From positions 1 through 33,772 of the IMG/VR virus record IMGVR_UViG_3300035698_027778: a stretch of 33,772 bases of DNA. One strand, 5' to 3'. The translations under genes were made by a program, and so were the position numbers. Positions 2,654-19,453 of this stretch are shown one piece after another. Position 1 is the first letter of the stretch. Every line of letters begins with the position of its first letter. Below the pieces are notes generated by a model that saw only the letters and a program-made list of their open reading frames with translations, was not told the origin of the DNA and searched no databases. The DNA is from a virus.

Positions 2654-2672
2654 TATATTTAGCGTAAATATA
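2654..2672. promoter_or_regulatory. Divergent promoter/operator palindrome TATATTTA-GCG-TAAATATA
   Basis: Two copies of the octamer TAAATATA, one per strand (minus 2654-2661, plus 2665-2672), face outward with a 3-bp centre and form a perfect 19-bp palindrome. The plus copy ends 6 bp before the ATG at 2679. The minus copy lies 14 bp before the ATG at 2639 and about 75 bp before the fibre gene. The octamer recurs at 8175, 14543 and 19446, always upstream of a gene. A bidirectional late promoter is inferred; a regulator-binding site is the alternative. Confidence 0.6.
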
Positions 2673-2678
2673 TTATAG

Positions 2679-3107
2679 ATGTCAGTTTCCAGCCATACCA
2701 TCACCGTACAAAACCGCCTAGAAGTCCGCCCGGGCAATGTAATTTTAGTTCCTGGGTGCGAACCGACGTCGGCATTTACTTCTCCGACCCTAGCGGCCAA
2801 CCAGGACTGCCAGGGGTCGATAGTGACATTGGCCGCCGTTCTGGCCAATATCCCCGGCGCCAAGGTGACCCAGCTCTACAATGGGGGTGGCGCTCACGTC
2901 AAAATGTATGTGATACTTCCAAGCGGCCCTGCACCATCTCCAAATCGCTGTAATACCGACACCTCAACTCCGTCGTGTATTCCCGATTGGTATGCAATTC
3001 TCAGAGAGCTTGCAGAACCAATCGCGTCGGACGATGATGAAGAGTCTCAGACCGTTGAACAAATCTGTGAGCGTTATTCGATACAAACACGCTGCGGAAT
3101 TCTGTAA
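2679..3107 (+). CDS. Hypothetical Cys-containing protein
   Basis: The protein has 142 residues and was not recognised. The first half (ITVQNRLEVRPGNVILVPGC) looks like beta strands. Six cysteines occur, including pairs near residues 27/43, a CNTDTSTPSC stretch and two near the C-terminus (ICERYSIQTRCGIL). The middle contains a Pro/Ser segment. The ATG lies 6 bp after a TAAATATA element with no Shine-Dalgarno sequence, so transcription and translation may start almost together, or the true start could be further in. The stop overlaps the next ATG (TAATG), so translation of the two is coupled. Confidence 0.6.
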   Translation: MSVSSHTITVQNRLEVRPGNVILVPGCEPTSAFTSPTLAANQDCQGSIVTLAAVLANIPGAKVTQLYNGGGAHVKMYVILPSGPAPSPNRCNTDTSTPSCIPDWYAILRELAEPIASDDDEESQTVEQICERYSIQTRCGIL

Positions 3108-6100
3108 TGTTCGAAGACAGGCTCAATAAAGCCCTCAATATAATCGACGAGTCTGTCTTATCTGAAGATGTGGCCGATGAAGTAATTATATTCTTGGATG
3201 TGCCATACACACTTGGCACTGCCGATGACAGATATTCAATCATTCGCGTGTATTCGAGCAGAGATTCGTCAGGTCCAATGGCCCACAGCACTGGCGGGAC
3301 TGCTGATGGGATGGAATGGAAATATTTGTCGGTCTCGGGCGATCATGACCAGACACCTGAGAGCAGCGGGATGCTGCCGGATTACTATAATCAACCTGAG
3401 CCTGGTGCGTTACAGACCCGAGTGAAATGGATTACTAAATTAAAAGGGCATGCTGCCCTTATGAATAATGAGAATGTCAATAGGCCAGTCGCCTACCAAC
3501 GGTTCAAGTCAAGCCCAATATTCAGGACAATCTCCTCGGCACTCGAGAAGTGGAGTACGCGAGGAGAGTTATTTGAATTTCCGGAGCTGAGCGGTGATGA
3601 TTCAGGTGCGTTCGCCAAATATGTCGCGGATTTAGGAGCATTAATTAAACGCCTGAATTCGCTTGCCGTATTCAATCGCGGCGCTGATCGAAAACAGGCA
3701 CGTTATCGCTCGCCGGCCAAGCTTTTTATCGACTGGTTGACTAATGTGCTGCAGAATCCTCCGTTCGATCTGAGTGGCTATTGGGTGGACAAAATCCCAA
3801 ACAAACCCATCGATATCGACCCAAACTTGGCCAGGCGAGATCCTGGTGCTAAACAACAGTTAGAAAAGCATTATAATTCGGGAAGCACAAAATATAAAAC
3901 GAAATATGGCGTCTATGACGATCTTATCAGTGGTGAATCCGCGTGGACCCCACAGCTCATTTATAATGCGATGCGTCGTGCCAGCACTGAGAATACTTCT
4001 AAAGAAGTTGCATCGAGAATCAACAGACTCGAGAGAGACCCAGAATATGGTCTAAAAAAATTACGGCGGATGGAGATAGCGCTCGCGCGCAAAATCTTAA
4101 GAACGAATCCTGGAATCCCAAAGAAGAAGGACGATCCGGATGTTTTGGCTCATAATGAGCTCTTAAATAAAATCGATGATCTTGAACAAGAGCTTGGCGA
4201 ATTAAAAAAACTTGGAAGCAGCACGCATTTCAATCCGACGATTAAAGATTATTGCGATTGGTTTGAGGCCGACCCGAATTCTACCCCGGAGGATGTTGTC
4301 TTTGATGGCGTAGTTAATCAGCGCGCTGTAGCTCAATGGGTGTTAGACAACAAATTGCCGTTCTTAGAATGGAAAGAAAAAGAAGTCGGTGTTGGGGCTG
4401 CTACTCGTGGAGATGATTTAATCGCATCAGATTTTATCATATCAACAAACCCAGATACCGACGAAAAACGCTCTCTTGGGCCCATTTCAAATACTGCAGA
4501 ATTATTTGAATTTTTAGAGATAGTCCAAAAAAGCCCAGCTGCATTGCGATGGGCGATAATTGACTTCGCCAAGGGCGTCGGCAAGGACAAACACGGCAGG
4601 CAGCATGAAGATGGCAATATCATCATCAAAACACGCGTTGAAACAACCGGTATTGTTAGTGACGATGATGTAGTTGATCTGTCGCAATTTGAACTCGATG
4701 CTAGAAAATCAGAAGCAACTCAGGCCGACCTCGGCCTTGTTGAGCCAGACATGGTTCATATAGGCATGCGCTCGAAGCTTGAAGTCACCGACCCAGATTA
4801 TATCGGTGCTCGTACGTATTCAGTACGGCCGTCCGATGAAACTATTATCAAACATTCCTATACTATGCGTGTGTGTGGTGACCCATTGGTTATATATAAT
4901 AAACGCCGAGAAGGAACTCTGACCAATACCAGTGTAATTTATGTCTATACAACATCCCCGAACATTAAACTGTCTGAAGAAGGGGATGACGTAGTAACCG
5001 CCTCGACGTTTGTTGGTGACAATGAGAAGACTTTATGCAAACTCTTCAGTTATTCACAACTACCGGAGAAATTAAGGGCGGTTGTAATTGATCATGCCGG
5101 TGTTGCTTCTAACATCAGGTCTGGAGGACAATTGCCTGGATGTTATCTTTGTTCTCTTTATGACGACGAAGGCAAGATTGTAGAGCTCCAACCAGGGACG
5201 ACGATTCCACCTGGACATGAAGCAATACACCATAAATTGGACCGCGATCAAGTAAATCTGCCGTCTGGCGCAGTAGTTCCGGCCAGTTACTTTCAGGAAG
5301 TTAAAAAAGCCCTCAAGCGGTTTTCTAAAGTTCGAGCCGCAGCCTGGTCGAGGAGGTCGGAAGCAGCTGGCGCCTCGAGAGGCAAACGTGTTCTAGACGA
5401 ATATATCAAAGAGTTTGCTGAGATCATCGACCAGGCTGTTAAAGATGGCGCCAGGTTTAGCGAAAGCCCGGAAGACGTCAAAGCAGCAATAACTAGGTGG
5501 CTCCAACAATATACTACTCCGCGCAGGTATGGTGTGAATGCTGAAGATCCGACCTCCATCGGTCGGATTCGGAGTGATGGAGAACTTACTGGGACGATGA
5601 AAGATACCATCATCAACGACATCATGAAGATGAATCGCGAAGGGAAATACGACAATATTTCTGGCGATGAAAATGATATTAGGACATTAGTTATTATTGC
5701 TGCACATATCGTCGACACGCATGGCAATCGAGTCCCAGACGCCGCTGAGATTGCAAATATTGCCAACAAATCTGGCGAGCACCTTGCTCCAGAGCACGCC
5801 ACAGCAATCAAGCGCATATTGGACGACGCTGTGGAACAATATATGGATGGTATGAATTCGCGTGAACGGAAAAATCTTATTGATCTAATTCGTGGCAAGA
5901 CTTATATCACTACCTTCGGTCGGTTTAGTCCACAAAATGACCAACGTTCCACCGATGACGAATTTGCAATCGAGCCAGAAGGGTGGGACGATGATGACGC
6001 GCTTGAATTTGTAAACGACCAAGCAATGGTTTCAGATATCGCGGATGAATTTATCAGAGACGCACGTTTTGTCATGCGAGAGAACCCAGACCTTTACGCT

Positions 6101-6391
6101 GCTTATTTGGCGTCTAAAGGGCACGGTTTCGCGGAAATCCAACAAATTCTTGCGGAGTCATCAATATTATTGACTGTTGACCAAGACGATCTCAGCAGCA
6201 TAAAGGTCCTTGGCGAGGCTGTTGGTGATGAACATTTATCTTTATTGAGTTTGGCCACGACGCATTATTCAACAGGTCTCGTCTGCATCAATGAGATGCT
6301 TCGCAGTTGGTGTATTCTTGACGAACGCGGGCAATATGCGAAGGCCAAAATCATCGATACTGATGGGACATTGGTATCAAATATTTTATAG
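3107..6391 (+). CDS. 1094-residue orphan protein, probably virion-associated
   Basis: No family was recognised for this long soluble protein. It begins with an acidic segment (MFEDRLNKALNIIDESV), then a beta-like stretch. Residues about 290-370 are charged and helical, with a likely coiled coil (KIDDLEQELGELKKLG). Residues about 500-740 are mixed alpha/beta. A long helical C-terminal half follows from about 740, containing a basic patch (KRFSKVRAAAWSRRSEAAG). No signal peptide, membrane helix, nucleotide-binding loop or protease motif is visible. It is co-translated with its upstream neighbour and abuts the neck/tail genes, with the next ATG directly after its stop. That context suggests a structural or injected virion protein, but no function should be assigned. 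Confidence 0.75.
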   Translation: MFEDRLNKALNIIDESVLSEDVADEVIIFLDVPYTLGTADDRYSIIRVYSSRDSSGPMAHSTGGTADGMEWKYLSVSGDHDQTPESSGMLPDYYNQPEPGALQTRVKWITKLKGHAALMNNENVNRPVAYQRFKSSPIFRTISSALEKWSTRGELFEFPELSGDDSGAFAKYVADLGALIKRLNSLAVFNRGADRKQARYRSPAKLFIDWLTNVLQNPPFDLSGYWVDKIPNKPIDIDPNLARRDPGAKQQLEKHYNSGSTKYKTKYGVYDDLISGESAWTPQLIYNAMRRASTENTSKEVASRINRLERDPEYGLKKLRRMEIALARKILRTNPGIPKKKDDPDVLAHNELLNKIDDLEQELGELKKLGSSTHFNPTIKDYCDWFEADPNSTPEDVVFDGVVNQRAVAQWVLDNKLPFLEWKEKEVGVGAATRGDDLIASDFIISTNPDTDEKRSLGPISNTAELFEFLEIVQKSPAALRWAIIDFAKGVGKDKHGRQHEDGNIIIKTRVETTGIVSDDDVVDLSQFELDARKSEATQADLGLVEPDMVHIGMRSKLEVTDPDYIGARTYSVRPSDETIIKHSYTMRVCGDPLVIYNKRREGTLTNTSVIYVYTTSPNIKLSEEGDDVVTASTFVGDNEKTLCKLFSYSQLPEKLRAVVIDHAGVASNIRSGGQLPGCYLCSLYDDEGKIVELQPGTTIPPGHEAIHHKLDRDQVNLPSGAVVPASYFQEVKKALKRFSKVRAAAWSRRSEAAGASRGKRVLDEYIKEFAEIIDQAVKDGARFSESPEDVKAAITRWLQQYTTPRRYGVNAEDPTSIGRIRSDGELTGTMKDTIINDIMKMNREGKYDNISGDENDIRTLVIIAAHIVDTHGNRVPDAAEIANIANKSGEHLAPEHATAIKRILDDAVEQYMDGMNSRERKNLIDLIRGKTYITTFGRFSPQNDQRSTDDEFAIEPEGWDDDDALEFVNDQAMVSDIADEFIRDARFVMRENPDLYAAYLASKGHGFAEIQQILAESSILLTVDQDDLSSIKVLGEAVGDEHLSLLSLATTHYSTGLVCINEMLRSWCILDERGQYAKAKIIDTDGTLVSNIL

Positions 6392-6982
6392 ATGACCATT
6401 CACCAATTTGGACCGCAGTTCGGGCCGGCTCGAAAACAAAAATTCGAGACCATAGATGACGTCCCTGATTTTAGGAACGACCCCGAAAAAACTCAATCCT
6501 TAGTTTCGGTCTATAACCATGATAAGGTCGATATTTCTTTGGTCGAGCGATGGACCGAAGAAGTCACCAACATTAGTGGGGCGTGGGTTAAGCTTTATCT
6601 CAAACAGACGACAAAAACCGACGATGTGTGGGAAGAGGATCCTGACCCGGTTTTCTCGGATGCCATTAATATCAAAGCATTCTTTAAACCAGAGCCGCGC
6701 CTGATCGAACTGACTAGATGGGGAATCGATGCCCCGCTAAAGCTCACTATCGTTTTTCATCGGGCTACTCTTCTGAAGAATCCAATTATAGGTGAGAGGT
6801 TAATAATTCCTGGCGATATTGTGGTCGCCCCATACAACCATGTCACCGAATCACATGATCCGCTGCAACTTAGGGTTCTGAACGCTACACCTGACGGTAA
6901 CTGGCATTATCGTTTCATGTATCACAAAGCGGTTTGCGAGGTCGTACCCTCCGATGCGACAATCAAGGTGAAGCATGACTGA
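6392..6982 (+). CDS. Putative neck/head-completion protein
   Basis: The 196-residue protein starts immediately after the stop of the 1094-residue gene. Its C-terminal half (ERLIIPGDIVVAPYNHV ... QLRVLNATPDGNWHYRFMYH) has the pattern of a connector protein with a beta-rich fold: a permissive start-of-strand GDI, then a domain describing 'value on changing frame' loops, as in phage neck and connector subunits. It sits upstream of a gp15-like completion gene and the sheath, where T4-like phages keep neck genes gp13/gp14. The assignment is by position and pattern only. An alternative is a baseplate or LysM-like structural protein. Confidence 0.4.
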   Translation: MTIHQFGPQFGPARKQKFETIDDVPDFRNDPEKTQSLVSVYNHDKVDISLVERWTEEVTNISGAWVKLYLKQTTKTDDVWEEDPDPVFSDAINIKAFFKPEPRLIELTRWGIDAPLKLTIVFHRATLLKNPIIGERLIIPGDIVVAPYNHVTESHDPLQLRVLNATPDGNWHYRFMYHKAVCEVVPSDATIKVKHD

Positions 6983-7349
6983 TAATATTGATGAGCAGAT
7001 GCCCGGCTTAATCGCCGCCATACAGGCCCAGGCCGATCGCACAATTAAAAAGACAGTGGCCCATATGGCTGAATTTGTGGCTAGAGATATTGCTAAAAGA
7101 TATGAGAACATGGAGGCTCCTTTAGAGGTTCATGGCGAAATGGTGTCTGATTATCCAACTGAGGATATCGCAGCAGCAGTTACTTATACAGTCACTAATA
7201 ATACTGCCACCATTTATCTCGACAAGGATGAGGCCGTCGAAGCCGCCCAAAAATATGCGGCATATATGGTGGCCGGCAACCCATTCCTCAAAGTGAGGAC
7301 CAAGTTGCGGGATCTACCTGAATTTAGACAAAGATATGCTGGGCTGTAA
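6975..7349 (+). CDS. Putative tail-completion/connector protein
   Basis: The protein has 124 residues. Its start overlaps the previous gene by 8 bp with AAGGTG upstream. Residues 1-50 are a long amphipathic helix (PGLIAAIQAQADRTIKKTVA ...). These are followed by short strands and a C-terminal helix. The size and helix-plus-beta layout resemble HK97-gp10-like or tail-terminator connector proteins, which usually lie between neck and sheath genes. Its stop overlaps the next start as TAATG. The family assignment is weak. Confidence 0.4.
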   Translation: MTDNIDEQMPGLIAAIQAQADRTIKKTVAHMAEFVARDIAKRYENMEAPLEVHGEMVSDYPTEDIAAAVTYTVTNNTATIYLDKDEAVEAAQKYAAYMVAGNPFLKVRTKLRDLPEFRQRYAGL

Positions 7350-8206
7350 TGATATATAATTTTCAGTTTATCCCAAGGCATAATGTTCTACACGCTGGTG
7401 GCGTAGTTCCCGAAAAGAAGCCATCAATAGCTACGGGCGTATTGACGGCCATGACAGCTCAGGCCAAGCCGACGAGGGAATTATATGACGATACCAACGT
7501 TAATGTTGGCGAGGAAATAAGGACAGTAGTCGAGCCAGCTTTTTATCATCACGACGCGGCCGTGAAGGCATATTTTGAGGGCATTCAAATCCCGACAAAA
7601 GATAGCGTTAAGAAGATGAAGGTTAAAATTGCCGGCGGAGATAAATCCCTATTGTTTTGGGATAAAGATATCGAGCGGGTGCGTGTTGCGCTTCCTGTCA
7701 TGTCTATCGTCAGAGAAGACGCCGAATTCAATCCAGAAAAATTCACGCCGGCCTATATGCCAGCTGCCAGGCGTTTTGCCCAAAACGACGGTGGTCGTAT
7801 GGTCTTGACCTACCGGCCGTTCCCCGTATTAATCCAGTATACTTTGGCGATTTGGGCCGAGTACAAACGAGACATTGGCATTATTCAACAAAATATTATG
7901 CCAAGATTCCATGGTGGGCTTGCAGAGATCCAAGCAGATCTTGGGCAAGTTACTGGGACTCTAATACTTAAGTATAACAGCATGACTGACAATAGTGAAG
8001 TTGATAAAGAAGCTGAGGCGATGCAGCTTAGGCGAATCGACATAAGTTTGACGGTAGAAGGATGGATACCGCTGCCCGAAAAGATTGTCCCGACGGTTCT
8101 TGGAAAAGTTACAACCATTAATGAATATGTGACAGGCGAATTCTTAGATGTAGCTGAACGGGGCATATCAGCAATAAATATATTAGAGCACGATGCCCCA
8201 CGCTAG
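7349..8206 (+). CDS. gp15-like tail completion/sheath stabiliser protein
   Basis: The protein has 285 residues. The central segment YRPFPVLIQYTLAIWAEYKR, followed by DIGIIQQNIMPRF and then a strand-rich LILKYNSMTD, matches the pattern 'pyP..i.y.l.i.a.. ..d..qi.eqilp.f.p' of T4 gp15/gp3-type tail terminator proteins. These cap the tail tube and sheath and join the tail to the neck. A VALPVMSIVREDAEFNPEKF segment sits before it, as expected for 'lP.isv......d..r' in that family. It is directly upstream of the sheath block, consistent with the T4-like order. Its last 36 bp contain a TAAATATA element serving the next gene. Confidence 0.55.
   Translation: MIYNFQFIPRHNVLHAGGVVPEKKPSIATGVLTAMTAQAKPTRELYDDTNVNVGEEIRTVVEPAFYHHDAAVKAYFEGIQIPTKDSVKKMKVKIAGGDKSLLFWDKDIERVRVALPVMSIVREDAEFNPEKFTPAYMPAARRFAQNDGGRMVLTYRPFPVLIQYTLAIWAEYKRDIGIIQQNIMPRFHGGLAEIQADLGQVTGTLILKYNSMTDNSEVDKEAEAMQLRRIDISLTVEGWIPLPEKIVPTVLGKVTTINEYVTGEFLDVAERGISAINILEHDAPR
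8175..8182 (+). promoter_or_regulatory. TAAATATA promoter-like element
   Basis: TAAATATATTAGAG lies 33 bp upstream of the ATG at 8215 and matches the copy at 2665 (TAAATATATTATAG) over 12 of 14 positions. It lies inside the 3' end of the preceding gene. An AGGAG ribosome-binding site follows it. A phage late promoter is inferred. Confidence 0.5.
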
Positions 8207-8214
8207 GAGCTAGA

Positions 8215-8499
8215 ATGGCAAAGCGCAACCTTTCACAGGCCGAGATCGCGGCACGCCAAAAGGCTGTCGACCAAGGCGACATACTCATTGAGAATACTAG
8301 TAATCAATTGGTGCAAATACAGCTTAAATCGCCGTATACTAAGGATGCTTCAAAGCGTCTGGATTTCTTCGTCGGTGAACAATCTGTGAGCCTTGGGCCG
8401 ACCAAATCGGCACGGTTCCCGAAGAATCGCCTATATATGGACCAGATCAACAATCTGCAGAAGCGAGGCCAGCTTCGGATACGCGGCGCGAAAACTTAA
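8215..8499 (+). CDS. Small basic protein upstream of sheath
   Basis: The 94-residue protein has a strong ribosome-binding site (AGGAG, 6 bp before ATG). A helical, charged N-terminus (LSQAEIAARQKAVDQGD) precedes a beta-like domain (ILIENTSNQLVQIQLKSP) and a basic tail (KRGQLRIRGAKT). The family was not recognised. It has its own promoter-like element and stands just before the sheath gene, so a small virion component or tail assembly factor is plausible. The 76 bp after it hold no further gene. Confidence 0.65.
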   Translation: MAKRNLSQAEIAARQKAVDQGDILIENTSNQLVQIQLKSPYTKDASKRLDFFVGEQSVSLGPTKSARFPKNRLYMDQINNLQKRGQLRIRGAKT

Positions 8500-8532
8500 A
8501 AAAGACCCCTATCTGGGGCCCTGACATTGAGC

Positions 8533-8546
8533 AAATATAATATAAT
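8533..8546 (+). promoter_or_regulatory. Candidate sheath promoter (CAAATATA plus overlapping TATAAT boxes)
   Basis: CAAATATAATATAAT contains a one-mismatch copy of the TAAATATA octamer and two overlapping perfect TATAAT hexamers (8536-8541 and 8541-8546). No good -35 hexamer sits 16-18 bp upstream. It lies 30 bp before the sheath ATG with a GGAG in between. Confidence 0.4.
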
Positions 8547-8575
8547 TAGGCACCATTAAGTTGGAGACGTAGCTG

Positions 8576-11431
8576 ATGGCACTTTACCTGTCTCCGGGCG
8601 TATTCCCGCGCGAGATAGATCTTTCTATCCTCGCAACGCTTTCAAGCGGGATTACGCCTGCGTTTATCGGCACCGCGCAAAAAGGCCCTGTAAACGACCC
8701 CACGTTCGTTTCTACGCCAGAACAGTTTATCGATGAGTTTGGTGAGCCATTCACCGACTCTAACCTCGGGTACGCAGTCCTTGCATACATGGAGGAAGGT
8801 AACCGGGCATGGATCATGAGGATCGGTGTTGAATGTGAAGAGGGACAGGTGTCCGCACTTGCCTCGATTTGTATTGATACATCTGGTGCTATGGAAGATG
8901 GTTGGGGCAGGATTGCGCTGTTCCAGGGGATCGATTTCGGAAAAGTCAGTCTTCGAGTGCCTACGACGACTGATATATTCGATTTCCACCCCGCCGGTGT
9001 TGATGACATTGATTACACCGACATTGACGTCTCTTCGTCGGATGGTGCCACCAACGCCACACTAGATTTTTCGTGCGGCACATGTACAGAGGAATATAAC
9101 GGCGCGATTGATGACAGTTTCACTGTCTTAGTTACTGCTTCACCCGATCCGTCATCTGGGTCGACTGTTGAGGGCGCAACATTCGAGATTATTCGTCAGA
9201 GCGACGGATCGGTTGTTGAGGATGGGACGTTTGGTGAAAGTGCTGTTCCCGGCACCTCGAACACGATTACCATCGGCACGACCGGTTTGTCATTTCGTGT
9301 TGTGGTTACGGGATCATCACCAATTGAGGAAGACGACACATTCACGTTCAGCGTTCAGCCCGAGAACCGTTACTTTGCGTTCCAGGTTGAGGGTAGAGCT
9401 GCGCCAGATGTTTATCAGATGCCGACGGCGACATATACGACAGCTGACACATTTGTGACGGCGTTCAATGACCTGCTTCCCGGCAACGAAGATTATATCG
9501 CGATTAATTCTGGCGGGGAACTTTATATTCGCACCGATACGGCTGGCGAACGTATCCAGTTGGTAGGAAATCCAATCACCGATATTAGCGCTGGTGAAGA
9601 TTCTGAGGGTTGGGCCCTCGAGGTTGGCAGTGCGAAATGGACGATCGACATTCCTCGCTCGTATATTATTGGTGACGACACTGGTCCGTATGCCATTACG
9701 TCCCAGAATCAAGACCTCACATTCCGGGTCGTTGGTCAAACCGCTTCGGTTGAGCTCGAGATGACGATAGCCGCTTCGTTGGCGGCTACAGCGACTTCGG
9801 TCGCCGCACAGATTCATGCCAGTAGTATCTCGAGTGGCACTCGTTATATGGATTCGTTTGCCATTTATACTTCTGATACCGAGAAGAAGGTGGTTATTGC
9901 GACGGATCAGACTCACCAGCTCTGGCAGATGAGGCTCCTGGCCGATTTCTCTCACATTGAGTCGTTGCGTTTTGCCGAAGTGCTCGAAATTCCTTATCCG
10001 TACACACGTGCATATCAAGGATTTTACGATTCACGAGTTGAAGAGCCAACACCAAGCACCGCAGATGCCTCAATTCCGGCTTCATGCGATGCCGCCGATG
10101 GCGGGGACCCCTCGGGTGCCTCATGTGCCGCTGATACGGCATATTACGCCAACATCGTCGGATATATTGTTGCGAAGTCGTCTGGAACTTGGATCGACAG
10201 TTTCAATCTGACGTTGGAACAATTCAATGACGATCCTGGTAGGTTTACGATTCTAATCAAAGACTCATCGGCGATCCTGCAAGAACGTATTGACGACCTG
10301 AGCTTCGATTCAAGCGCCACACGTTATATCGCGAATGTGATTAATGAAGGTTCGTCGATCGGTGGCACAAACGGCAATAGCTGGATCCAGTGGGTCGAAA
10401 GGGCTGTTGGCACAACCGAGGATCGCGATCCTGGGTCCCGCAATGCGACGTCCTTCAGCGGCGCGGCGAACGGTATTCCGACTAGTGCCGTGTACTCATC
10501 TGAGATCGATCGCGCAATTATCGGCAACCCGAGCGCGGCGTCTGGATTCTACGCCTTCAGCAACCCGGAGACGATCGATATCTCCCTGCTGGTGGTGCCG
10601 GGCAACTCGTCGGGTTCAGTTATCGCCCAAGGCTTGCAGCTTTGCGAAGGGCGGGGTGACTGCCATTACATCATCGATCCTCCGTACGGGCTCCGTCCGC
10701 AGCAGGTGGTCGACTGGCACAATGGCATGTTGAACTCTGACCTTACTGCGGCGATTAATAGCAGCTATGGTGCTCTTTACTGGAGCTGGCTGAAGATTTT
10801 CGATCAGTTCAGTGCTGAAGAGATTTACGTCCCGCCGTCCGGCCACATCGCTGCGGTTTACGCAAGGACCGAGCGTGAAAGCGAAATGTGGTACGCCCCG
10901 GCGGGTCTGAACAGAGGACGCCTGCTAACAGCCAAGGATGTCGAATATAGCCCGACGTCTGGAGAGCGCGATCTGCTCTATGGCTACAACAACGCGGTCA
11001 ACCCCATTGTGAACTTCCCGCAAGATGGTATCACAGTCTGGGGTCAGCGCACATTACAGCGCGCGGATTCGGCTCTCGATAGGGTCAACGTCCGGATGCT
11101 GCTCATTGCACTCAAGAAATCCCTGATTCCGCTACTACGCAACTACGTCTTCGAGCAGAACGATAGATTCTTGTGGTCGCAGGTGCGCGGAGCGATCAGG
11201 CCACTTCTAGCGGACATCGCCGCACGGCGCGGTCTAACAGCATATAAGGTGGTGTGTGATGAGACCAATAACACACCGCAACGAATCGATCGCAACGAAC
11301 TCTGGGTGAGCGTCTACATCAAGCCGACTCGCGTGGCAGAGTTCATCGTTCTCAATCTAGTTGTGATGCGCAGCGATCAGAGCTTTGCATCTGAGGAAGT
11401 CCTACAAGCCGGTGGCGTTGTTGGTGCTTAA
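8576..11431 (+). CDS. Tail sheath protein (gp18-like)
   Basis: This is the contractile tail sheath subunit, which polymerises around the tube and contracts to drive it into the cell. The N-terminus (LSPGVFPREIDLS ... ITPAFIGTAQKGPVNDPTFV) is the hallmark 'PGVyvrEid.s......t..a.vG.a.kGP' of sheath proteins. The C-terminus (GITVWGQRTLQRADSALDRV, then VRMLLIALKKSLIPLLRNYV) and the stretch ending in FIVLNLVVMRSDQSFASEEV match the conserved sheath C-terminal domain. At 951 residues it is about half as long again as T4 gp18 (659). The extra length lies in the middle (about 130-620), beta-rich and Thr/Ser/Asp-rich, probably surface-exposed insertion domains. Ribosome-binding site GGAG is upstream. 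The stretch is richer in G/C and in common codons than its neighbours, as expected for an abundant protein. Confidence 0.95.
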   Translation: MALYLSPGVFPREIDLSILATLSSGITPAFIGTAQKGPVNDPTFVSTPEQFIDEFGEPFTDSNLGYAVLAYMEEGNRAWIMRIGVECEEGQVSALASICIDTSGAMEDGWGRIALFQGIDFGKVSLRVPTTTDIFDFHPAGVDDIDYTDIDVSSSDGATNATLDFSCGTCTEEYNGAIDDSFTVLVTASPDPSSGSTVEGATFEIIRQSDGSVVEDGTFGESAVPGTSNTITIGTTGLSFRVVVTGSSPIEEDDTFTFSVQPENRYFAFQVEGRAAPDVYQMPTATYTTADTFVTAFNDLLPGNEDYIAINSGGELYIRTDTAGERIQLVGNPITDISAGEDSEGWALEVGSAKWTIDIPRSYIIGDDTGPYAITSQNQDLTFRVVGQTASVELEMTIAASLAATATSVAAQIHASSISSGTRYMDSFAIYTSDTEKKVVIATDQTHQLWQMRLLADFSHIESLRFAEVLEIPYPYTRAYQGFYDSRVEEPTPSTADASIPASCDAADGGDPSGASCAADTAYYANIVGYIVAKSSGTWIDSFNLTLEQFNDDPGRFTILIKDSSAILQERIDDLSFDSSATRYIANVINEGSSIGGTNGNSWIQWVERAVGTTEDRDPGSRNATSFSGAANGIPTSAVYSSEIDRAIIGNPSAASGFYAFSNPETIDISLLVVPGNSSGSVIAQGLQLCEGRGDCHYIIDPPYGLRPQQVVDWHNGMLNSDLTAAINSSYGALYWSWLKIFDQFSAEEIYVPPSGHIAAVYARTERESEMWYAPAGLNRGRLLTAKDVEYSPTSGERDLLYGYNNAVNPIVNFPQDGITVWGQRTLQRADSALDRVNVRMLLIALKKSLIPLLRNYVFEQNDRFLWSQVRGAIRPLLADIAARRGLTAYKVVCDETNNTPQRIDRNELWVSVYIKPTRVAEFIVLNLVVMRSDQSFASEEVLQAGGVVGA

Positions 11432-13644: not shown

Positions 13645-13690
13645 CGACGCCGGAAACCTAGTCCCGGATTATGAGTCGGCCGGGAAAGCC

Positions 13691-13864
13691 ATGGAAGCCG
13701 AATGGAATGATTTGATGGAGCAGCAATATATTCTATCAACTCGTGGTGATTTGAATATATTCGAGCAATCTTTAATGACTGCCGAGGAGCGCGCCTGGTG
13801 GATTCAGAGGCTGCGCAAGGATAATGAAGCAGAGAAGCAGGCCATGAATAAAGCTAAGGGTTAG
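13691..13864 (+). CDS. Small tail-assembly/hub chaperone-like protein
   Basis: The frame encodes 57 residues (MEAEWNDLMEQQYILSTRGD ... AEERAWWIQRLRKDNEAEKQ ...). The pattern of an N-terminal helix, 'EER.W.i.Rl.kd.eae...M.K' and a basic end resembles the small partner proteins that follow gp26-like genes in T4-like phages (the gp51 position). Its ATG lies 47 bp after the gp26-like stop, with GGGAA upstream. The frame is +1 relative to the gp26-like gene and is open back into its 3' end (to about 13603) without another start codon. It could be translated alone or by a +1 shift. It ends AAG-GGT-TAG at 13862-13864. Confidence 0.6.
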   Translation: MEAEWNDLMEQQYILSTRGDLNIFEQSLMTAEERAWWIQRLRKDNEAEKQAMNKAKG

Positions 13865-14010
13865 GAAGTCCACGACCTGAAGATATTGATTTTGCGTTCC
13901 ATGGCTCTTGTTGGATTCTGATATATCCAGTCGGCTATAACTCTTCGTACTCTTTAATTAAATCCATACATTATGTTTGGTCGGATATTACCGCTAAAAC
14001 AACATGCTAA
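13861..14010 (+). other. Start-less open frame, possible -1 frameshift extension
   Basis: From TTA at 13861 a frame of 49 codons runs to TAA at 14008-14010 (LGSPRPEDIDFAFHGS...). It has a protein-like composition but contains no ATG, GTG or TTG. It is the -1 frame of the 57-residue ORF, entered by re-reading the last T of GGT at the sequence G-GGT-TAG. Its stop overlaps by two bases the stop of the convergent minus-strand gene, which argues that it is coding to its end. Fused, the product would have about 106 residues. Alternatives are an ATT start near 13885, a decayed gene, or an indel error. Confidence 0.4.
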
Positions 14011-14534
14011 GCCGGACGGTTTCTTTCGTAATATCCCCCCGACGAAGACGGGCCAATAATCGGCTTATTGAATGGGGCGCCATCAATAGGTGTTGCGCCG
14101 GCCGGGGTTGGGTCGAAGCCAGCCTCGTGTGCGCCAAGCACATCAATGACGAATTCTATAATCTCTTTGGCGGTATGCTCTGGTTCAGAAGCAGACTTAT
14201 TCTCGGAAATCTGCCCATTTTGAACATTTTTCAGTTCGGCAAGACTCGAGTGAATGGTCTTCCCGAGGTGCATACTATTGGTGCCGAGTACGAATAGGTT
14301 CCAACCGAGCTTCGTCCTACCGGACGTGGGCTCGATCTCTTCTACGTACGGAGTGACCTCGACCTTCCCGAATAATTCCGGGATCACGCCGCCCAGATCA
14401 GCGACTGCCGGCGGGTACACTAGAGATCCATAATCGTCTTCGAAACCCTTCTTGTCGAAATATACCATTAACTGGCGTCTGGTAATTTCTTTCGTCAGGG
14501 CGCGTTTTACGGCTTTGGCTAATTTTGCGTGCAT
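14007..14534 (-). CDS. Antisense-oriented hypothetical gene within tail operon
   Basis: The protein has 175 residues if started at the ATG at 14534; GTG at 14540 is also in frame. Residues 1-45 are basic and helical (MHAKLAKAVKRALTKEITRR). A beta region follows (VTPYVEEIEPTSGRTKLGWN, then LFVLGTNSMHLG), then a helix near EHTAKEIIEFVIDVLG. The Pro/Gly-rich tail ends SSGGYYERNRPA. No family was recognised. It is the only minus-strand gene inside the tail block and has its own TAAATATA element 8 bp upstream of the ATG, with essentially no 5' leader. The longer frame extending to 14738 overlaps the next plus gene and is unlikely. Confidence 0.6.
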   Translation of the reverse strand: MHAKLAKAVKRALTKEITRRQLMVYFDKKGFEDDYGSLVYPPAVADLGGVIPELFGKVEVTPYVEEIEPTSGRTKLGWNLFVLGTNSMHLGKTIHSSLAELKNVQNGQISENKSASEPEHTAKEIIEFVIDVLGAHEAGFDPTPAGATPIDGAPFNKPIIGPSSSGGYYERNRPA

Positions 14535-14542
14535 GGGCACAT

Positions 14543-14550
14543 TATATTTA
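14543..14550 (-). promoter_or_regulatory. TAAATATA promoter-like element (minus strand)
   Basis: On the minus strand TAAATATA is followed by ATGTGCCC and the ATG at 14534. It lies in the 49-bp gap between the divergent starts at 14534 and 14584. This mirrors the arrangement at 2654-2672, though here only the minus copy is exact; the plus side shows GATATTATAG instead. Confidence 0.5.
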
Positions 14551-14583
14551 CCCAAAGATATTATAGCAGCATTGGAGTTCAGT

Positions 14584-15363
14584 ATGCCATATCCTAGGAT
14601 GTCTGGGCGCAAGGGCGCGACAATACGTCTAAACGCCGATTTCTTCGCCAATGGTGTTCTGACCGACCCATATGCCATACGAAGAATTGATATATATAAA
14701 CAAAGCAAGGCCACGGAGAACCTTGTAGCCCAGATCACGGTTGGCGATCCAGATTCCTCTGGCTACCCTGAGCCGCTAATTCAGACTGCTGCTGGGCGGT
14801 ATTATGTGGACTGGGAAGTGCCGGACGATCTCGAGGCACCTGCAGTATATCTTGATGACTGGCAATTCATCGGAGATGAGCTGGTTGCCAGCAGTGGCAG
14901 CGCGGTAGATCTGGACGACGAGGACCTTTGGGATTCGTACTGCAACACATTCTGGCTTGTGGCAGCAAGTAGCTGGTACATTGACGATGCATTGTATACC
15001 TACGATTTCGGTTTCGACCCGCTTGACCGAGATATCACGAAGCCTGAAAAAAGGTCGATCGAAATTGGGATTATGCCGCTCCCGCTGTATGATTTCGATT
15101 ACAATAGGGTGGCCCCTTTGATGGCCCACTTAACGGCGACAATTACAATTTCGACAATGAATCACGAAACTCTCGTTGACGGAGCTGCTATGACCATGGG
15201 CCTGCGGCACGGAGCACATCGTGTCAACCCATTCGTGGCTCGTTATTTGGTCGACTCGAGTACTGCCGTTTATCGAAAGGGAACGTATAGGTATTTCGTC
15301 AGTCTAGCATTACCCAATGGTGAAACACGGAACAGTCCGTACTTCACGTTCTCGGTGAACTAA
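14584..15363 (+). CDS. Hypothetical virion structural protein
   Basis: The protein has 259 residues. The ATG has GGAG at good spacing, so this start is preferred to the upstream TTG at 14452, which would overlap the divergent gene. The sequence is beta-rich: an opening strand GATIRLNADFFANGVLTDPY, a segment IRRIDIYK, and a C-terminal YFVSLALPNGETRNSPYFTF typical of an Ig-like sandwich end. A conserved-looking HGAHRVNPFVARYLV stretch lies near residue 215. The family was not recognised. Its location among tube, hub and tape measure genes supports a tail or baseplate component. Its stop overlaps the next ATG (TAATG). Confidence 0.65.
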   Translation: MPYPRMSGRKGATIRLNADFFANGVLTDPYAIRRIDIYKQSKATENLVAQITVGDPDSSGYPEPLIQTAAGRYYVDWEVPDDLEAPAVYLDDWQFIGDELVASSGSAVDLDDEDLWDSYCNTFWLVAASSWYIDDALYTYDFGFDPLDRDITKPEKRSIEIGIMPLPLYDFDYNRVAPLMAHLTATITISTMNHETLVDGAAMTMGLRHGAHRVNPFVARYLVDSSTAVYRKGTYRYFVSLALPNGETRNSPYFTFSVN

Positions 15364-15689
15364 TGAGATTATCCCAGCTACATGAAGGATGGCTCGACAA
15401 GTTGGAGCAATGGACTCCATCAAACGACCCGGATATTCCTGTGATTGACGATTTTACGACATGGGTATCGAAAACTTTGGGGCTTCAACGTGTTCCAGAT
15501 GACGAAGAGGAACAAGAGGAAGAATCCGAAGAAGAATTGAGTGATGTAGATATTAGAAAGAAGGACGCGGCAGAGAAAATAATCAAACCGATCACATCCA
15601 TGGCTGTCGGCGGCACTGTTCCGCCGGGTCAGGGAAAACATCGTGGCCCGCCCGGAGCCGGCGCTTTTGGCTTAGCGCCAACGAGGTAA
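15363..15689 (+). CDS. Small acidic hypothetical protein
   Basis: The protein has 108 residues, coupled to the previous gene by TAATG. An amphipathic N-terminus (MRLSQLHEGWLDKLEQWTP) precedes a Glu-rich stretch (DDEEEQEEESEEELSD) and a Gly/Pro-rich tail (VPPGQGKHRGPPGAGAFG). It looks like a disordered adaptor. The 'RLSQLHEGW' opening recalls short N-termini of many T4-like virion proteins, but no function is recognised. Confidence 0.6.
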   Translation: MRLSQLHEGWLDKLEQWTPSNDPDIPVIDDFTTWVSKTLGLQRVPDDEEEQEEESEEELSDVDIRKKDAAEKIIKPITSMAVGGTVPPGQGKHRGPPGAGAFGLAPTR

Positions 15690-15690
15690 T

Positions 15691-15981
15691 ATGAAGCTGG
15701 CATGGATAAGGTATGGGAGTGGTGAAGAGAAAAAGCATATGCTTATGCTTAGACTTGGCCAACCGACTGGAAAATTTGTCGGTCTGATATCAGAGAAAAT
15801 CCCAAACGAAGTAATAAAGGCCATACGTGTCTATGCCGAAGAGCTCGACAAGATGGATGTAAAAGCCAGGGTTGCGTGGATAAAAGAAATCTGGCCGGGA
15901 TATTCTTCCGCATATCGTGAGATAAAGACGTCAAATATGGTTATTGAAAAAACTCTCGATTTGGAACCAATAAGTGTCTGA
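15691..15981 (+). CDS. Hypothetical protein
   Basis: The 96-residue protein starts 1 bp after the previous stop. N-terminal strands (MKLAWIRYGSGEEKKHMLML) lead to helices rich in Lys/Glu (VIKAIRVYAEELDKMDVKAR). It overlaps the following hub gene by 8 bp, so the two are co-translated. The family is unknown; context suggests a hub accessory protein. Confidence 0.6.
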   Translation: MKLAWIRYGSGEEKKHMLMLRLGQPTGKFVGLISEKIPNEVIKAIRVYAEELDKMDVKARVAWIKEIWPGYSSAYREIKTSNMVIEKTLDLEPISV

Positions 15982-17284
15982 TACAGCAGAAGCTCTAGAC
16001 ACCTCTGCAGCGATCGCGCCTGCAGCTGCAGTCATGATCGCGGGTGGCGACGATCTAGGAAAGAATATCCAAACTTTCCAATGGTCCTCGTTTGTGAATT
16101 CTGGATATATTGTGCGGTGCAAATTCCGCGACCCAAACCACGCTGTCTTAAGGTCTGTAGTGTCTGGTGATGATAGCACGACAAAATATTTGGAAGAGGG
16201 CCGTCGCAGGCCTGTAGAGATTAAGTTCAAATTAGTCAAGACCGGGAAGCTTGAGACCGACGAGCGCCTAGCCTATCTTACTAACATCAAAGCGTATGGA
16301 ACGGCCGAAAACGGGTATACTGAGTTTATTGGCATCGATCCCCCGAGTTTTCTACTTAATGCCGGTACGGCGGACGGCGGCGCCTACAAGGGCAAGGTGT
16401 CCGAAGTCATAAAAAATGTGATCAAGAAATTTACCGACTTGAAAGTCACCGACGGCCCGGATAGCGAAGTTAACATCACCACGACCCAGGACAACGCCGA
16501 GAACATACACTGGATGAACCGGATGGACCCGAAGACGTTCATCAGTTCATTGCTAGAATGGTCCTCGCCATTCACCCCCAAAAAGTCGAAATGGATTGTT
16601 TCGAGCCGAGATCGGGCATTTAACATTAAAGAGGAGGCGGAATTAAAGGGCAAGGATTTTGGTGTGGTATATGTCACCGCTCGTGACGGCAGAGCAACAG
16701 ATACCATGCAGTGGGATGCCGAATTAAATAACTTCGTGTCGGTATTCCAAACAAAATTGGCTACTGGTGGGATTTCCAGTGTATCCGGTAAGTATTATGA
16801 TCCAGTCACTGCGCCCGATCAGGTCATCATTGATGACGCCAACACCATGGCTAAGGTAAACAGTCTTGAAAAGTCGGATAAGGGCCGATCATTCGCAAAA
16901 CCTGGGCCCAGCGACAACTGGCCGGCTGGTGTTCCTATGACGTTTATTCGGCCGATACCTGAATATGGTAGCGCTGGCGACCTTGGTAAACCATATGGTG
17001 AATATATATCTGGTCGCGCGCGCCAGCTCTTCATGAGCATGGTGAATATGGTAATGCGGGTTGTGGTCGAAGTAAAGGGCGCGCACGAGCTTGACGACAG
17101 CGATCTACTTGGAGTTAGTACATGCACTCTGAGCTGGAAGTCAAATGGTGTTGAGGAGGGGCATTTTCTACATGGTAGATGGATTATTTATGGATTCAGG
17201 CATAATCTGACTAAGCACAAGGGCTGGCGCACACAATTATACCTATATCGTATTGATTATGATGCTGAGGCAACTAAGATCTAA
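15974..17284 (+). CDS. Baseplate hub-like protein (gp27/gpD type)
   Basis: The protein has 436 residues with a GTG start at 15974 and GGAA upstream. The layout fits hub proteins that form the trimer seating the spike: a beta-rich N-domain (FVNSGYIVRCKFRDPNHAVL), a helix-forming insertion (GKVSEVIKNVIKKFTDLKVT), a segment with KWIVSSRDRAF, and a C-terminal HGRWIIYGFRHNLTKHKGWR, then TQLYLYRID. The last pattern, 'G.w.v.g..H.l....g..T.l.l.R', is characteristic of gpD/gp27-type hubs. The spike gene lies 6.4 kb downstream, after the cassette and tape measure. Confidence is moderate because hub families diverge strongly. Confidence 0.55.
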   Translation: MSDTAEALDTSAAIAPAAAVMIAGGDDLGKNIQTFQWSSFVNSGYIVRCKFRDPNHAVLRSVVSGDDSTTKYLEEGRRRPVEIKFKLVKTGKLETDERLAYLTNIKAYGTAENGYTEFIGIDPPSFLLNAGTADGGAYKGKVSEVIKNVIKKFTDLKVTDGPDSEVNITTTQDNAENIHWMNRMDPKTFISSLLEWSSPFTPKKSKWIVSSRDRAFNIKEEAELKGKDFGVVYVTARDGRATDTMQWDAELNNFVSVFQTKLATGGISSVSGKYYDPVTAPDQVIIDDANTMAKVNSLEKSDKGRSFAKPGPSDNWPAGVPMTFIRPIPEYGSAGDLGKPYGEYISGRARQLFMSMVNMVMRVVVEVKGAHELDDSDLLGVSTCTLSWKSNGVEEGHFLHGRWIIYGFRHNLTKHKGWRTQLYLYRIDYDAEATKI

Positions 17285-17288
17285 GTAT

Positions 17289-17317
17289 TTGACAAAAAGG
17301 CTTCTTTGTGATACAAT
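17289..17317 (+). promoter_or_regulatory. Consensus sigma70-type promoter
   Basis: TTGACA (17289-17294), a 17-bp spacer and TACAAT (17312-17317) form a near-perfect host housekeeping promoter starting 5 bp after the hub stop codon. The predicted start of transcription is near 17324, just before GGAGC and the ATG at 17337. It is the best sigma70 match I saw in the window, unlike the AT-rich octamer used by the tail genes. Confidence 0.75.
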
Positions 17318-17336
17318 CCCAGTATGGAGCGCTGAT

Positions 17337-17651
17337 ATGAGTGAAAACAATGGCGCCAAAGCGCTTGGTTATCTTCTTCTTCTATTTGTACTAGTTTACA
17401 CGTTTATTCGTTGGTTCTATGGTGGCCCAAGGACCTTTCTAAAGGTCTTTCTTTTTAATCTGTGGATCATAGCATCCTGGTATTTGGGGTTCGCTGACGA
17501 CCCGGTTTATGGATATGGCCCAGGTTGTGCTTCCTCGATCGTGTTTATAATTCTCTTTGTGCCGATTATGTTCTATACGACTTTCGTTTGGCAGGGTTAT
17601 TGTTGGTCTGAAGAAGAGGTATTTGAGAACGGTGAAGAAACCGTTCATTAA
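17337..17651 (+). CDS. Small membrane protein with three TM helices
   Basis: The protein has 104 residues from the ATG with GGAGC 6 bp upstream; the longer upstream frame crosses the promoter and is rejected. Three hydrophobic segments are clear: about 9-27 (ALGYLLLLFVLVYTFIRWF), 33-52 (TFLKVFLFNLWIIASWYLGF) and 65-85 (ASSIVFIILFVPIMFYTTF). The C-terminal tail is acidic (SEEEVFENGEE). It is the first gene of the sigma70-driven cassette and overlaps the primase start. It is not recognised as a holin or superinfection-exclusion protein, though either is compatible with its size and early promoter. Confidence 0.7.
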   Translation: MSENNGAKALGYLLLLFVLVYTFIRWFYGGPRTFLKVFLFNLWIIASWYLGFADDPVYGYGPGCASSIVFIILFVPIMFYTTFVWQGYCWSEEEVFENGEETVH

Positions 17652-18711
17652 ACCGTCTCAATCGCAGATTGAGACATGGATTAAAACCAATATCCGGGAC
17701 TATAATACGCGCAATAGTTCCGCGCGTGGTATGATATATCTAATCGATAACCCGGCGATCCCGGGCGATTCTGGGCATCATCTCGGGATAAGTCCGTCTG
17801 AAGGCTGGTGTCGCGACTTCCGCCCGCACTACAGCGACTGGAATGTTTCATTCCTCAAATTCGTGAGCAAGGTCCGTAATTGCTCGTTCCACGAGGCGAT
17901 CAAGGAAGTATGCGGCAATAAGGCGACTCTCAAAGCACTCATCGCTGAAGTCAAGCGTGCTGAAGAAGAAATAGATGAAGAGCCCGAGGAGGTTTTTGCA
18001 CTCCCAGATAACGTCAAGACCATTGGTGTTGGAGAAGGCGCGGCATGGAAGATTGCCACGAATTATCTCAAACGCCGCCAAATTTCAGTGGAAGAAGCCA
18101 CTAGATTAGACATTCGCTATAACGTCACTAGCTTGTGCTTCCCATATTATGAATATGGGATGGTCGTTTATTATCAAACTAGAGACATGATGGCCAAACG
18201 CTTTTATTTCCCGACGGTCGATGCGGCCGGTGAGAAATCCAATGCGTTCCTGTACGGTTTCGATGACGTCGAGCCAATGACGCCGGCAATTATCACGGAA
18301 GCAATATTCGATTCGATCATGATTGGCGAAGGTGGCCTGGCGACAGGCGGGGCGACTTTCAAGCGCAAGCAAATTAGTAAGCTCAGAGCATTAAACCCAT
18401 CGAAGGTCGTGCTCGCCCCAGACAACGATAATGCCGGCTTGATCTCACTGCGTTCAAATTATGACCTTCTCGAGCCACATTTCGGAGGGCGATTATATCA
18501 TTGCCTGCCACCACAGGAACACAAGGATTGGAACGCATTCGCCCAAGCCATCAGCCGCATAAATAAGCCAACAGCAGTTAGGGATTGGATCGATGATAGG
18601 ATTGAGCCACTCGATTCGTTTAGTGTTTTGAAATTGACGGATCAGGCTGTTGATGAAGTTGAACAAGGCATGAAGAACCGCCGCAAGCTCGGCAGATATC
18701 TTAGGGGCTAA
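17632..18711 (+). CDS. DNA primase, DnaG/Toprim type
   Basis: This primase would synthesise RNA primers for phage DNA replication. The protein has 359 residues if started at GTG 17632; a TTG nine bases upstream is possible. Residues about 30-100 resemble a primase N-terminal domain (GMIYLIDNPAIPG ... GWCRDF) but lack the usual CHC2 zinc-finger cysteine set. Residues about 125-200 form the linker before the core. The Toprim core follows: TEAIFDSIM with Glu223, a GGLATGGATFKRKQISKLRA segment, and APDNDNAGL with Asp264/Asp266. These acidic residues bind catalytic Mg2+. No helicase Walker motif is present. It is the only replication gene in this stretch, lies in the early-type cassette and is 2 bp from the next gene. 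Confidence 0.75.
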   Translation: MKKPFIKPSQSQIETWIKTNIRDYNTRNSSARGMIYLIDNPAIPGDSGHHLGISPSEGWCRDFRPHYSDWNVSFLKFVSKVRNCSFHEAIKEVCGNKATLKALIAEVKRAEEEIDEEPEEVFALPDNVKTIGVGEGAAWKIATNYLKRRQISVEEATRLDIRYNVTSLCFPYYEYGMVVYYQTRDMMAKRFYFPTVDAAGEKSNAFLYGFDDVEPMTPAIITEAIFDSIMIGEGGLATGGATFKRKQISKLRALNPSKVVLAPDNDNAGLISLRSNYDLLEPHFGGRLYHCLPPQEHKDWNAFAQAISRINKPTAVRDWIDDRIEPLDSFSVLKLTDQAVDEVEQGMKNRRKLGRYLRG

Positions 18712-18713
18712 AT

Positions 18714-19253
18714 ATGACATGTATTATTGGTATTGTCGGTAAAGATCGTGTCTGGATGGCGGCGGATTCTATTGGCTCCAATGGCTGGAACAAGGCACAT
18801 CGCACAGATGCGAAATTGTTTCGTAATGGTCCGTTCCTTATTGGATTCACGTCGTCATATCGAATGGGTCAGCTCATTCGATATGACTTCAAACCGCCGC
18901 AACCCAGCGGCGACCCACATAGGTTTATGGTGTCTAAATTCATCCCGGGGGTTAGAAAATGTCTCAAAGATGGGGGATTCCTGACAACCAAGGATGGCGT
19001 CGACCAAGGTGGTGAATTCCTGGTTGCTGTGGGATCTAAGATATTCCATATTCAATCTGATTTCCAAGTTGGGGAATCAAGCGACGGATTTGACGCCTGC
19101 GGGTCTGGAAGCGATTTTGCCCTTGGGTCTTTGTGGACCTCCACAGGGACCGAACGCTTTAGACTTAAATTGGCTCTTGAGGCCGCTGAGAGATATATTA
19201 TTACTGTCGGCGGACCTTTCGTCTATCGAAGCCAGAAAATCAAAAGTACTTAA
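18714..19253 (+). CDS. Proteasome/HslV-like Ntn-hydrolase peptidase
   Basis: The protein has 179 residues. After removal of Met1 the N-terminus is Thr (TCIIGIVGKDRVWMAADSIG), and numbering from that Thr puts Asp at 17 and Lys at 33 (AHRTDAKLFR). These are exactly the Thr1/Asp17/Lys33 catalytic set of proteasome beta subunits and HslV. The GFTSS stretch near 46 matches the 'GfaG' turn, and CGSGSDFALGSL near 125 matches the conserved GSG-(S/G)-x-(Y/F)-A element that carries the oxyanion/Ser129 region. Family members form ring-shaped peptidases fed by AAA+ ATPases. No partner ATPase (HslU-like) is in the window, so host unfoldase use or ATP-independent action is inferred. The gene sits 2 bp after the primase. 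Confidence 0.85.
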   Translation: MTCIIGIVGKDRVWMAADSIGSNGWNKAHRTDAKLFRNGPFLIGFTSSYRMGQLIRYDFKPPQPSGDPHRFMVSKFIPGVRKCLKDGGFLTTKDGVDQGGEFLVAVGSKIFHIQSDFQVGESSDGFDACGSGSDFALGSLWTSTGTERFRLKLALEAAERYIITVGGPFVYRSQKIKST

Positions 19254-19313
19254 GATAATGTCATTGCGGGCCACCACCAACGATCGAATATGAAGCCGCA
19301 ACAGCGGTAGCGT

Positions 19314-19387
19314 TGGCCCGTGGCCGAAGGGTGAGGCTCCGTCCTTATAAGACGGAAAACTGGGTTCGAGTCCCAGCGGGCCTACCA
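19314..19387 (+). tRNA. tRNA-Ile, anticodon UAU, CCA encoded
   Basis: A cloverleaf can be folded by eye. The acceptor is TGGCCCG/CGGGCCT with six good pairs and a T1-T72 mismatch. U8 is present and a three-pair D stem is GCC/GGC. The anticodon stem CCGTC/GACGG is perfect, with loop CTTATAA (anticodon TAT, A37 as expected for A-starting codons). The variable loop is AAAA, and the T arm is CTGGG-TTCGAGT-CCCAG. The discriminator is A and CCA is genome-encoded. The anticodon reads AUA isoleucine codons, which occur in several genes of the window. It lies 60 bp after the peptidase gene and before an intrinsic terminator. Confidence 0.85.
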
Positions 19388-19395
19388 TTTTCTCT

Positions 19396-19432
19396 GGCCG
19401 GTGGTTCCATGTAAGGGCCTCCGGCCATTTTT
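19396..19432 (+). terminator. Intrinsic terminator after the tRNA
   Basis: A nine-position stem (GGCCGGTGG, 19396-19404, with CCTCCGGCC, 19418-19426) has eight G/C pairs and one T-T mismatch. It encloses a 13-nt loop and is followed by A and TTTTT (19428-19432). It would end transcription from the cassette promoter at 17289 just before the promoter element of the tape measure gene. Confidence 0.75.
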
Positions 19433-19445
19433 ATGCATATCCCGG

Positions 19446-19453
19446 TAAATATA
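19446..19453 (+). promoter_or_regulatory. TAAATATA promoter-like element
   Basis: TAAATATATAAAG lies 38 bp before the tape measure ATG and 13 bp after the terminator T-tract. It matches the other plus-strand copies over the first nine bases. It would restart late transcription after the cassette. A 12-bp palindrome GGATAGGTATCC lies between it and the gene, overlapping the weak ribosome-binding region. Confidence 0.5.

Follow-up and report, generated by a model that had tools for sequence, protein, structure and literature searches.

The stretch analyzed here (the window) is the entire IMG/VR record IMGVR_UViG_3300035698_027778, a linear viral fragment of 33,772 bases, in which a short DNA element, the box, precedes several genes. 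The gene content comprises a tail sheath, two tube genes, baseplate hub and wedge genes, a primase-like gene, a peptidase and a ribonucleotide reductase. An earlier note had singled out the octamer TAAATATA and proposed it as a phage-specific late promoter element. The copies of the octamer and of its variants CAAATATA and CAAAGATA are listed below with three of the genes that they precede. Positions are window coordinates, distances are the bases between box and start codon, and the predicted start is the base 6 nucleotides (nt) past the box (see below).

2654..2661, minus strand: box TAAATATA, 75 bases upstream of the minus-strand gene 1922-2578; predicted start A at 2648; back-to-back with the box at 2665
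2665..2672, plus strand: box TAAATATA, 6 bp before gene 2679-3107; predicted start G at 2678, 1 base ahead of the ATG
7329..7336, plus strand: box CAAAGATA, 12 bp before gene 7349-8206; predicted start G at 7342
7349..8206, plus strand: T4 gp15-like tail sheath stabilizer gene
8175..8182, plus strand: box TAAATATA, 32 bp before gene 8215-8499; predicted start G at 8188
8532..8539, plus strand: box CAAATATA, 36 bp upstream of the tail sheath gene; predicted start A at 8545
8576..11431, plus strand: tail sheath gene (PHROG 23, E 1e-83)
14543..14550, minus strand: box TAAATATA, 8 bp before the ATG at 14534 of the minus-strand open reading frame (ORF) 14007-14534; base at the predicted start (14537) is C, a non-purine
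14553..14560, plus strand: box CAAAGATA, 23 bp before gene 14584-15363; predicted start G at 14566; divergent partner of the box at 14543
14584..15363, plus strand: tail-cluster gene that carries the box across the clade; Pfam and PHROG gave no match
19446..19453, plus strand: box TAAATATA, 38 bp before gene 19492-22686 and 3' of tRNA-Ile (19314-19387); predicted start A at 19459

An exact count found TAAATATA at 2654 (-), 2665 (+), 8175 (+), 14543 (-) and 19446 (+) and nowhere else in the window, as the earlier note had reported. The expectation is 1.17, in line with the one or two chance copies that had been estimated, and five copies were reached in 1 of 100 dinucleotide shuffles. All five are oriented with the gene that they precede, at distances of 75, 6, 32, 8 and 38 bases, which reproduces the range of 6-75 bp given before, and the one-mismatch form ascribed to the sheath gene is CAAATATA at 8532. 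The wider form CAAAGATA likewise precedes genes, at 14553 (+) and 7329 (+). Not all of the TAAATATA copies are intergenic, as that at 8175 lies within the 3' end of gene 7349-8206. The T4-type word TATAAATA was found twice (1796 and 1889), both times inside a gene. A purine occupies the predicted start of seven of the eight boxes, and the longer form TAAATATAT(T/A)A that had been noted on the plus-strand copies reflects a T/A-rich stretch running to this purine. The weakest TAAATATA copy is that at 14543 (-), because ORF 14007-14534, which fills a gap otherwise empty of genes, has no known relatives. Two divergent pairs are placed back-to-back (2654/2665 and 14543/14553), spaced 2-3 bases; across the clade, such pairing was mildly enriched (14 pairs among 427 upstream sites versus 13 non-overlapping pairs among 798 in-gene sites), and we dropped it as a general rule for that reason.

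A search with the sheath protein retrieved approximately 30 close relatives (mostly 46-60% identity) and approximately 50 more distant ones. Genes in 11 related contigs were called with a simple caller of our own, not a published one, and all 7-mers and 8-mers upstream of genes were enumerated with no motif supplied. The main upstream signal that emerged was (C/T)AAA(T/A/G)ATA, with C preferred. Thus, the octamer belongs to a real signal and differs from TATAAATA, as had been claimed, but is not itself the consensus: the forms beginning with C are commoner and better conserved. Pooling ten contigs placed AAATATA at the top together with CAAATATA, which had 23 of its 36 copies upstream (1.6 expected), and CAAAAATA, which had 25 of 51 (2.3 expected). 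CAAAGATA followed closely (10 of 19, 0.9 expected), and a free motif fit returned gtCAAAtATAatttag at approximately 30% of the genes. In most contigs, the reversed word was enriched little or not at all, and enrichment on the opposite strand was much weaker. The count that the earlier note had proposed as a refuting test, that of copies inside genes or in the wrong orientation, was run on the relatives and came out with the element concentrated upstream of genes and correctly oriented.

Furthermore, the element was the strongest upstream word, or among the strongest, in the large contigs. It came first in the 341-kb contig G021 (CAAATATA, 19 of 44 copies upstream, 2.3 expected), in G018 (CAAAAATA, 16 of 33, 1.7 expected) and in G013 with a guanine-plus-cytosine (GC) content of 59.5% (CAAAGATA, 7 of 9, 0.4 expected), ranked among the strongest words in G012, and was found as CAAAWATA in the 408-kb contig G015 (16 of 31, 1.7 expected), there alongside stronger dispersed repeats. 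A single word is common to contigs of 32% to 60% GC, which probably infect different hosts. LR756511, considered as a near relative, was set aside, as its 41-kb piece had no clear enrichment of the box.

Conservation ahead of orthologous genes was evident for the sheath gene: a box stands 8-75 bases upstream in 19 of the 23 distinct close relatives, where 0.5 would be expected, but in 1 of 33 relatives from the outgroup against an expectation of 0.7. The orthologues of gene 14584 carry a box in 11 of 14 cases. Any box precedes 5 of the 35 orthologues of the sheath stabilizer gene 7349-8206, including a (C/T)AAAGATA box 13-28 bp upstream in G002, G006 and L024. TAAATATA itself precedes one of the two orthologues of gene 19492-22686 (in G002), and none of the three orthologues of the minus-strand gene starting at 2578 has a box.

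Words other than the box were also found upstream of genes in the large contigs. Another promoter class is possibly represented by GTAT(T/C)TGA, which has 20 of its 49 copies in G012 upstream (2.8 expected), and by TGTATTTAA-like words in G014 and G021. The dispersed intergenic repeats of G015, which contain TTAACGGGG, CTCGCAACA and GGGCAGACGATTCCCC, are very strongly concentrated upstream of genes (24 of 30 for TTAACGGG, 1.7 expected); they may form a repeat family or act as an early promoter.

To describe the anatomy of the box, the flanks of 346 upstream sites were counted against those of 652 in-gene sites; this replaced the fitting of a wide (34-nt) motif on the sigma loci described below, which drifted to codon periodicity. 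C stands at the first box position in 64% of upstream sites and 28% of in-gene sites, and the base preceding the box is G or T. From 8 to 35 bases ahead of the box, the 346 upstream sites had no base bias, so there is no -35 element. A purine is found at +13 from the first base of the box, i.e. 6 nt past it, in 74% of upstream and 51% of in-gene sites (p 2e-18). The distance from box to start codon has a median of 30 bases and runs from 14 to 66 bases between the 10th and 90th percentiles, and GGAG words resembling ribosome-binding sites occur separately, 3' of the box. In a T4 control run through the same pipeline (123 kb), TATAAATA ranked first (16 of 25 copies upstream) and a purine was present at the same +13 offset in 82% of cases. 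The element described here gave little sign of enrichment in that control (12 versus 7.7 expected) and none in outgroup phages (14 versus 10.9 expected). T4 late promoters occupy -13 to -6 (PMC1524935) and lack sequence conservation at -35 (PMC2988020). The element matches this geometry and therefore has the same layout with a different word.

The genes behind the box were classified by their homology to T4 genes. A box was found before 28 of the 76 homologues of virion genes and 1 of the 27 homologues of DNA-metabolism genes (Fisher p 4e-4), and the bias held when the sheath was excluded (14 of 61 versus 1 of 27, p 0.02). Similarly, 13 of the 64 genes in the 0-60 kb stretch of G015, which bears terminase, portal, capsid and sheath homologues, carry a box, and none of the approximately 235 genes at 160-280 kb does. 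This distribution fits that of late genes. We infer, with good confidence, that the element deserves the names 'promoter' and 'late' from its gene orientation, its virion-gene bias and a start purine placed as in T4, all of which favor what the earlier note had suggested.

The same note had called for a search for a phage sigma factor, and a candidate was found in the relatives. A weak match to sigma region 2 in G003 (E 0.002) led to a protein family present in G001, G002, G003, G006 and G008, for which PHROG and Pfam gave no useful assignment. Scanning the collection with an alignment of four members yielded 71 sigma loci, on contigs of up to 408 kb. An unbiased count of words upstream of genes in these loci again put this element on top, as AAATATA (102 versus 15 expected, p 2e-52) and CAAATATA (44 versus 3.9). 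The family, of approximately 250-350 amino acids (aa), has a sigma domain 2 like that of gp55 along with a C-terminal domain that is helical, and many members end in a hydrophobic-acidic tail, for example IDFDEE or EDFFYVDQDQ.

An AlphaFold model of the family sigma (predicted local distance difference test score 80.5) found T4 gp55 in its promoter complex as the best structural match (7d7c_F, Z 12.9, root-mean-square deviation 6.0 over 125 residues), although the model is mostly helical and a Z near 13 can arise by chance among helical bundles. All of the best 50 matches listed were sigma factors, and region 2 of E. coli sigma-32 superposed with a deviation of 2.2 over 94 residues. The predicted structure thus has the sigma domain 2 fold. 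The family was not filed under gp55, because sequence profiles fail to link the two (hhalign, see below). Moreover, phmmer with T4 gp55 gave no match in the family search, and searches with T4 gp55 (phrog_234) and phrog_12791 returned nothing in G001-G008 and two matches in the distant LR756511 only. Two family members searched against 50,697 phage records had no match. No RNA polymerase beta subunit (PF00562) was found in ten contigs of up to 408 kb, which are possibly incomplete; all 14 control genomes had a match.

Several features of the family were observed in passing. Approximately 12 sigma genes (L130, L161, L162, L164, L168, L176, L179, L186, L190/L191, L195/L196 and L197) contain large in-frame inserts of approximately 330-450 aa at two different sites inside sigma domain 2. 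Pfam recognized intein splicing and LAGLIDADG endonuclease domains in the five that were searched, and inteins within a candidate late sigma factor seem unusual. Many members (L146-L151 and L155-L192, e.g., G001:26453-27379 and G008:27857-28717) have an insert of 50-60 aa with paired CxxC motifs, resembling a zinc ribbon, just ahead of the conserved FN(M/L)WSQ stretch of domain 2. The sole relative in GTDB genomes is L299 (JAJDEN010000008.1, a metagenome-assembled genome labelled Planctomycetota; 42% identity over 200 aa), on a contig of 432 kb and 62.5% GC where the neighbors of the sigma gene match none of the phage proteins compared; it could belong to a host, to an integrated element or to a phage that was binned wrongly.

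We propose, with fair confidence, that the box is the single-box late promoter of a broad clade of jumbo myoviruses including that of the window, most likely read by a phage sigma on the host RNA polymerase. The consensus (G/T)(C/T)AAA(T/A/G)ATA would span approximately -13 to -6 with no -35 element, transcription would start at the purine located 6 nt past the box, with mainly virion (late) genes being driven. The reader would be the host RNA polymerase carrying the phage-encoded sigma, and the family described above is probably the one that recognizes the box. T4 gp55 binds the sliding clamp through a hydrophobic-acidic segment (PMC2988020), and by resemblance only the tail of the family could do likewise.

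Several observations weigh against this proposal. No box precedes any of the 14 orthologues of gene 2679-3107, which makes the box at 2665 a phage-specific or doubtful promoter, or any of the 18 orthologues of gene 8215-8499. Only approximately 37% of the virion-gene homologues carry a box; many of them sit within operons. Aligning the sigma family with seven gp55 sequences by hhalign gave a probability of 0.3%, and searches for the gp45 clamp (phrog_223 and PF02916) found no match in the relatives, nor any in the controls, so that they say nothing about its presence. The window itself has no sigma gene. G003, its most syntenic relative, is collinear with it through the last complete gene (31031..33421, plus strand, ribonucleotide reductase large subunit, PF02867, E 7e-95), and the G003 sigma gene begins approximately 1.85 kb past the orthologue of that gene; the sigma gene of the window phage is therefore expected just beyond base 33772.

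The box could instead be a phage promoter served by a conventional phage sigma with region 4 (approximately 270-350 aa) and not by the gp55-like family. We hold this to be unlikely, albeit the most serious competitor, as region-4 matches were detected in seven of the ten large contigs (G002, G012, G013, G015, G016, G018 and G019), which also counts against the proposal above, and a second sigma-like protein, fused inside a protein of 540-680 aa, occurs in G002 and G006. On the other hand, G001, G014 and G021 (341 kb) yielded no region-4 match despite a strong box, although these contigs may be incomplete. A sigma of this type would usually need a -35 element, and none was found beside the box. 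The fused protein (region 4 match E 9e-7; G006:24415-26028 and G002:80906-82840) lies in the tail gene cluster and is possibly a virion protein; we rejected it as the reader of the box, as it is present in G002 and G006 only among the ORFs searched.

The box is rich in A/T, lies at promoter distance from genes and has a purine where transcription would start, which would also suit the -10 element of a host RNA polymerase working with a host sigma factor and no phage help. This is improbable, given that TATAAT was not enriched upstream of genes in G012, G018 and G015 (8, 13 and 11 versus 7.3, 17.1 and 14.1 expected), that no -35 signal (TTGACA) accompanies the box, that the box favors virion genes, and that one word serves contigs of such different GC content with probably different hosts. 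The proximity to start codons (the median of 30 bases) might point to an element acting in RNA, as a translation signal or a processing site. We give little credence to that idea: a distance as variable as that measured here speaks against a ribosome signal, GGAG words follow the box separately, and the purine keeps a fixed distance past it, just as the T4 control showed. Least credible of all is that an A/T-rich word clustered by chance in intergenic DNA. The five copies in the window are only moderately rare by shuffling, but the element recurs in many independent contigs, one of them at 59.5% GC, is much less or not enriched when reversed or on the opposite strand, and is conserved ahead of gene 14584 and the sheath gene across orthologues.

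Late promoters of a single box read by a phage sigma are an already known kind. The present system shares with T4 and gp55 the lone box before virion genes with no -35 element and a purine 6 nt past it, as well as a phage sigma with a (here predicted) sigma-domain-2 fold and a hydrophobic-acidic C-terminal tail, and no phage RNA polymerase found. It differs in the word, (C/T)AAA(T/A/G)ATA versus TATAAATA of T4, and in a longer sigma with an extra helical C-terminal domain and no detectable sequence kinship to gp55. Aeromonas phage Aeh1 has the late promoter CTAAATA, in which C replaces A at -12 (PMC1524935). This T4-related variant shows that a late box can drift, whereas Aeh1 is a T4-like phage with a recognized gp55, and its word is not the CAAANATA found here. 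Group 2 jumbo phages have no RNA polymerase of their own and encode sigma factors, both minimal ones with only a helix-turn-helix (HTH) and RpoD-like ones, which are thought to recruit the host enzyme (PMC7824862). The clade studied here agrees with them in genome class, in sigma genes and in that no polymerase was found, but its sigma family pairs domain 2 with a separate C-terminal domain.

Jumbo phages of the phiKZ/AR9 type possess multisubunit RNA polymerases and short late promoter motifs. The latter is a likeness to the present clade, the former a difference, as no beta subunit was matched in ten of its contigs. A literature search that reached few subscription papers returned nothing relevant on CAAATATA as a phage promoter. 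What appears new is the word, the family of sigmas and the pairing of the two.

T4 divides the work of late transcription between gp55, which recognizes the promoter, and gp33, which contacts the flap and the clamp. It is a tentative and rather doubtful idea that one chain joins both roles here, with sigma domain 2, a C-terminal flap-binding/HTH domain and a clamp tail, and reads CAAANATA across a large uncultured jumbo lineage. If the sigma were indeed a fused gp55-gp33, it would bear directly on the evolution of clamp-activated transcription. The proposed pair of promoter and sigma is testable across a wide group of jumbo phages, would allow late transcription units to be predicted in phage contigs from metagenomes, and offers a natural comparison for changes of promoter specificity among gp55-type sigmas.

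The remaining observations concern the window itself. A megablast of 12 kb of it against public phages gave no close DNA match, GTDB genomes searched with gene 14584 for a host gave none either, and a single-sequence scan with the gp6-like gene 28074 found no relatives. The HslV-family peptidase gene (18714-19253) and the ribonucleotide reductase gene lie within or beside the tail and baseplate genes. The single tRNA-Ile has the anticodon TAT and stands immediately ahead of the box at 19446. Tandem 60-base repeats, seen by eye, occupy window positions 1-350 in the minus-strand ORF at the left end, which probably encodes a repetitive fibre or surface protein.

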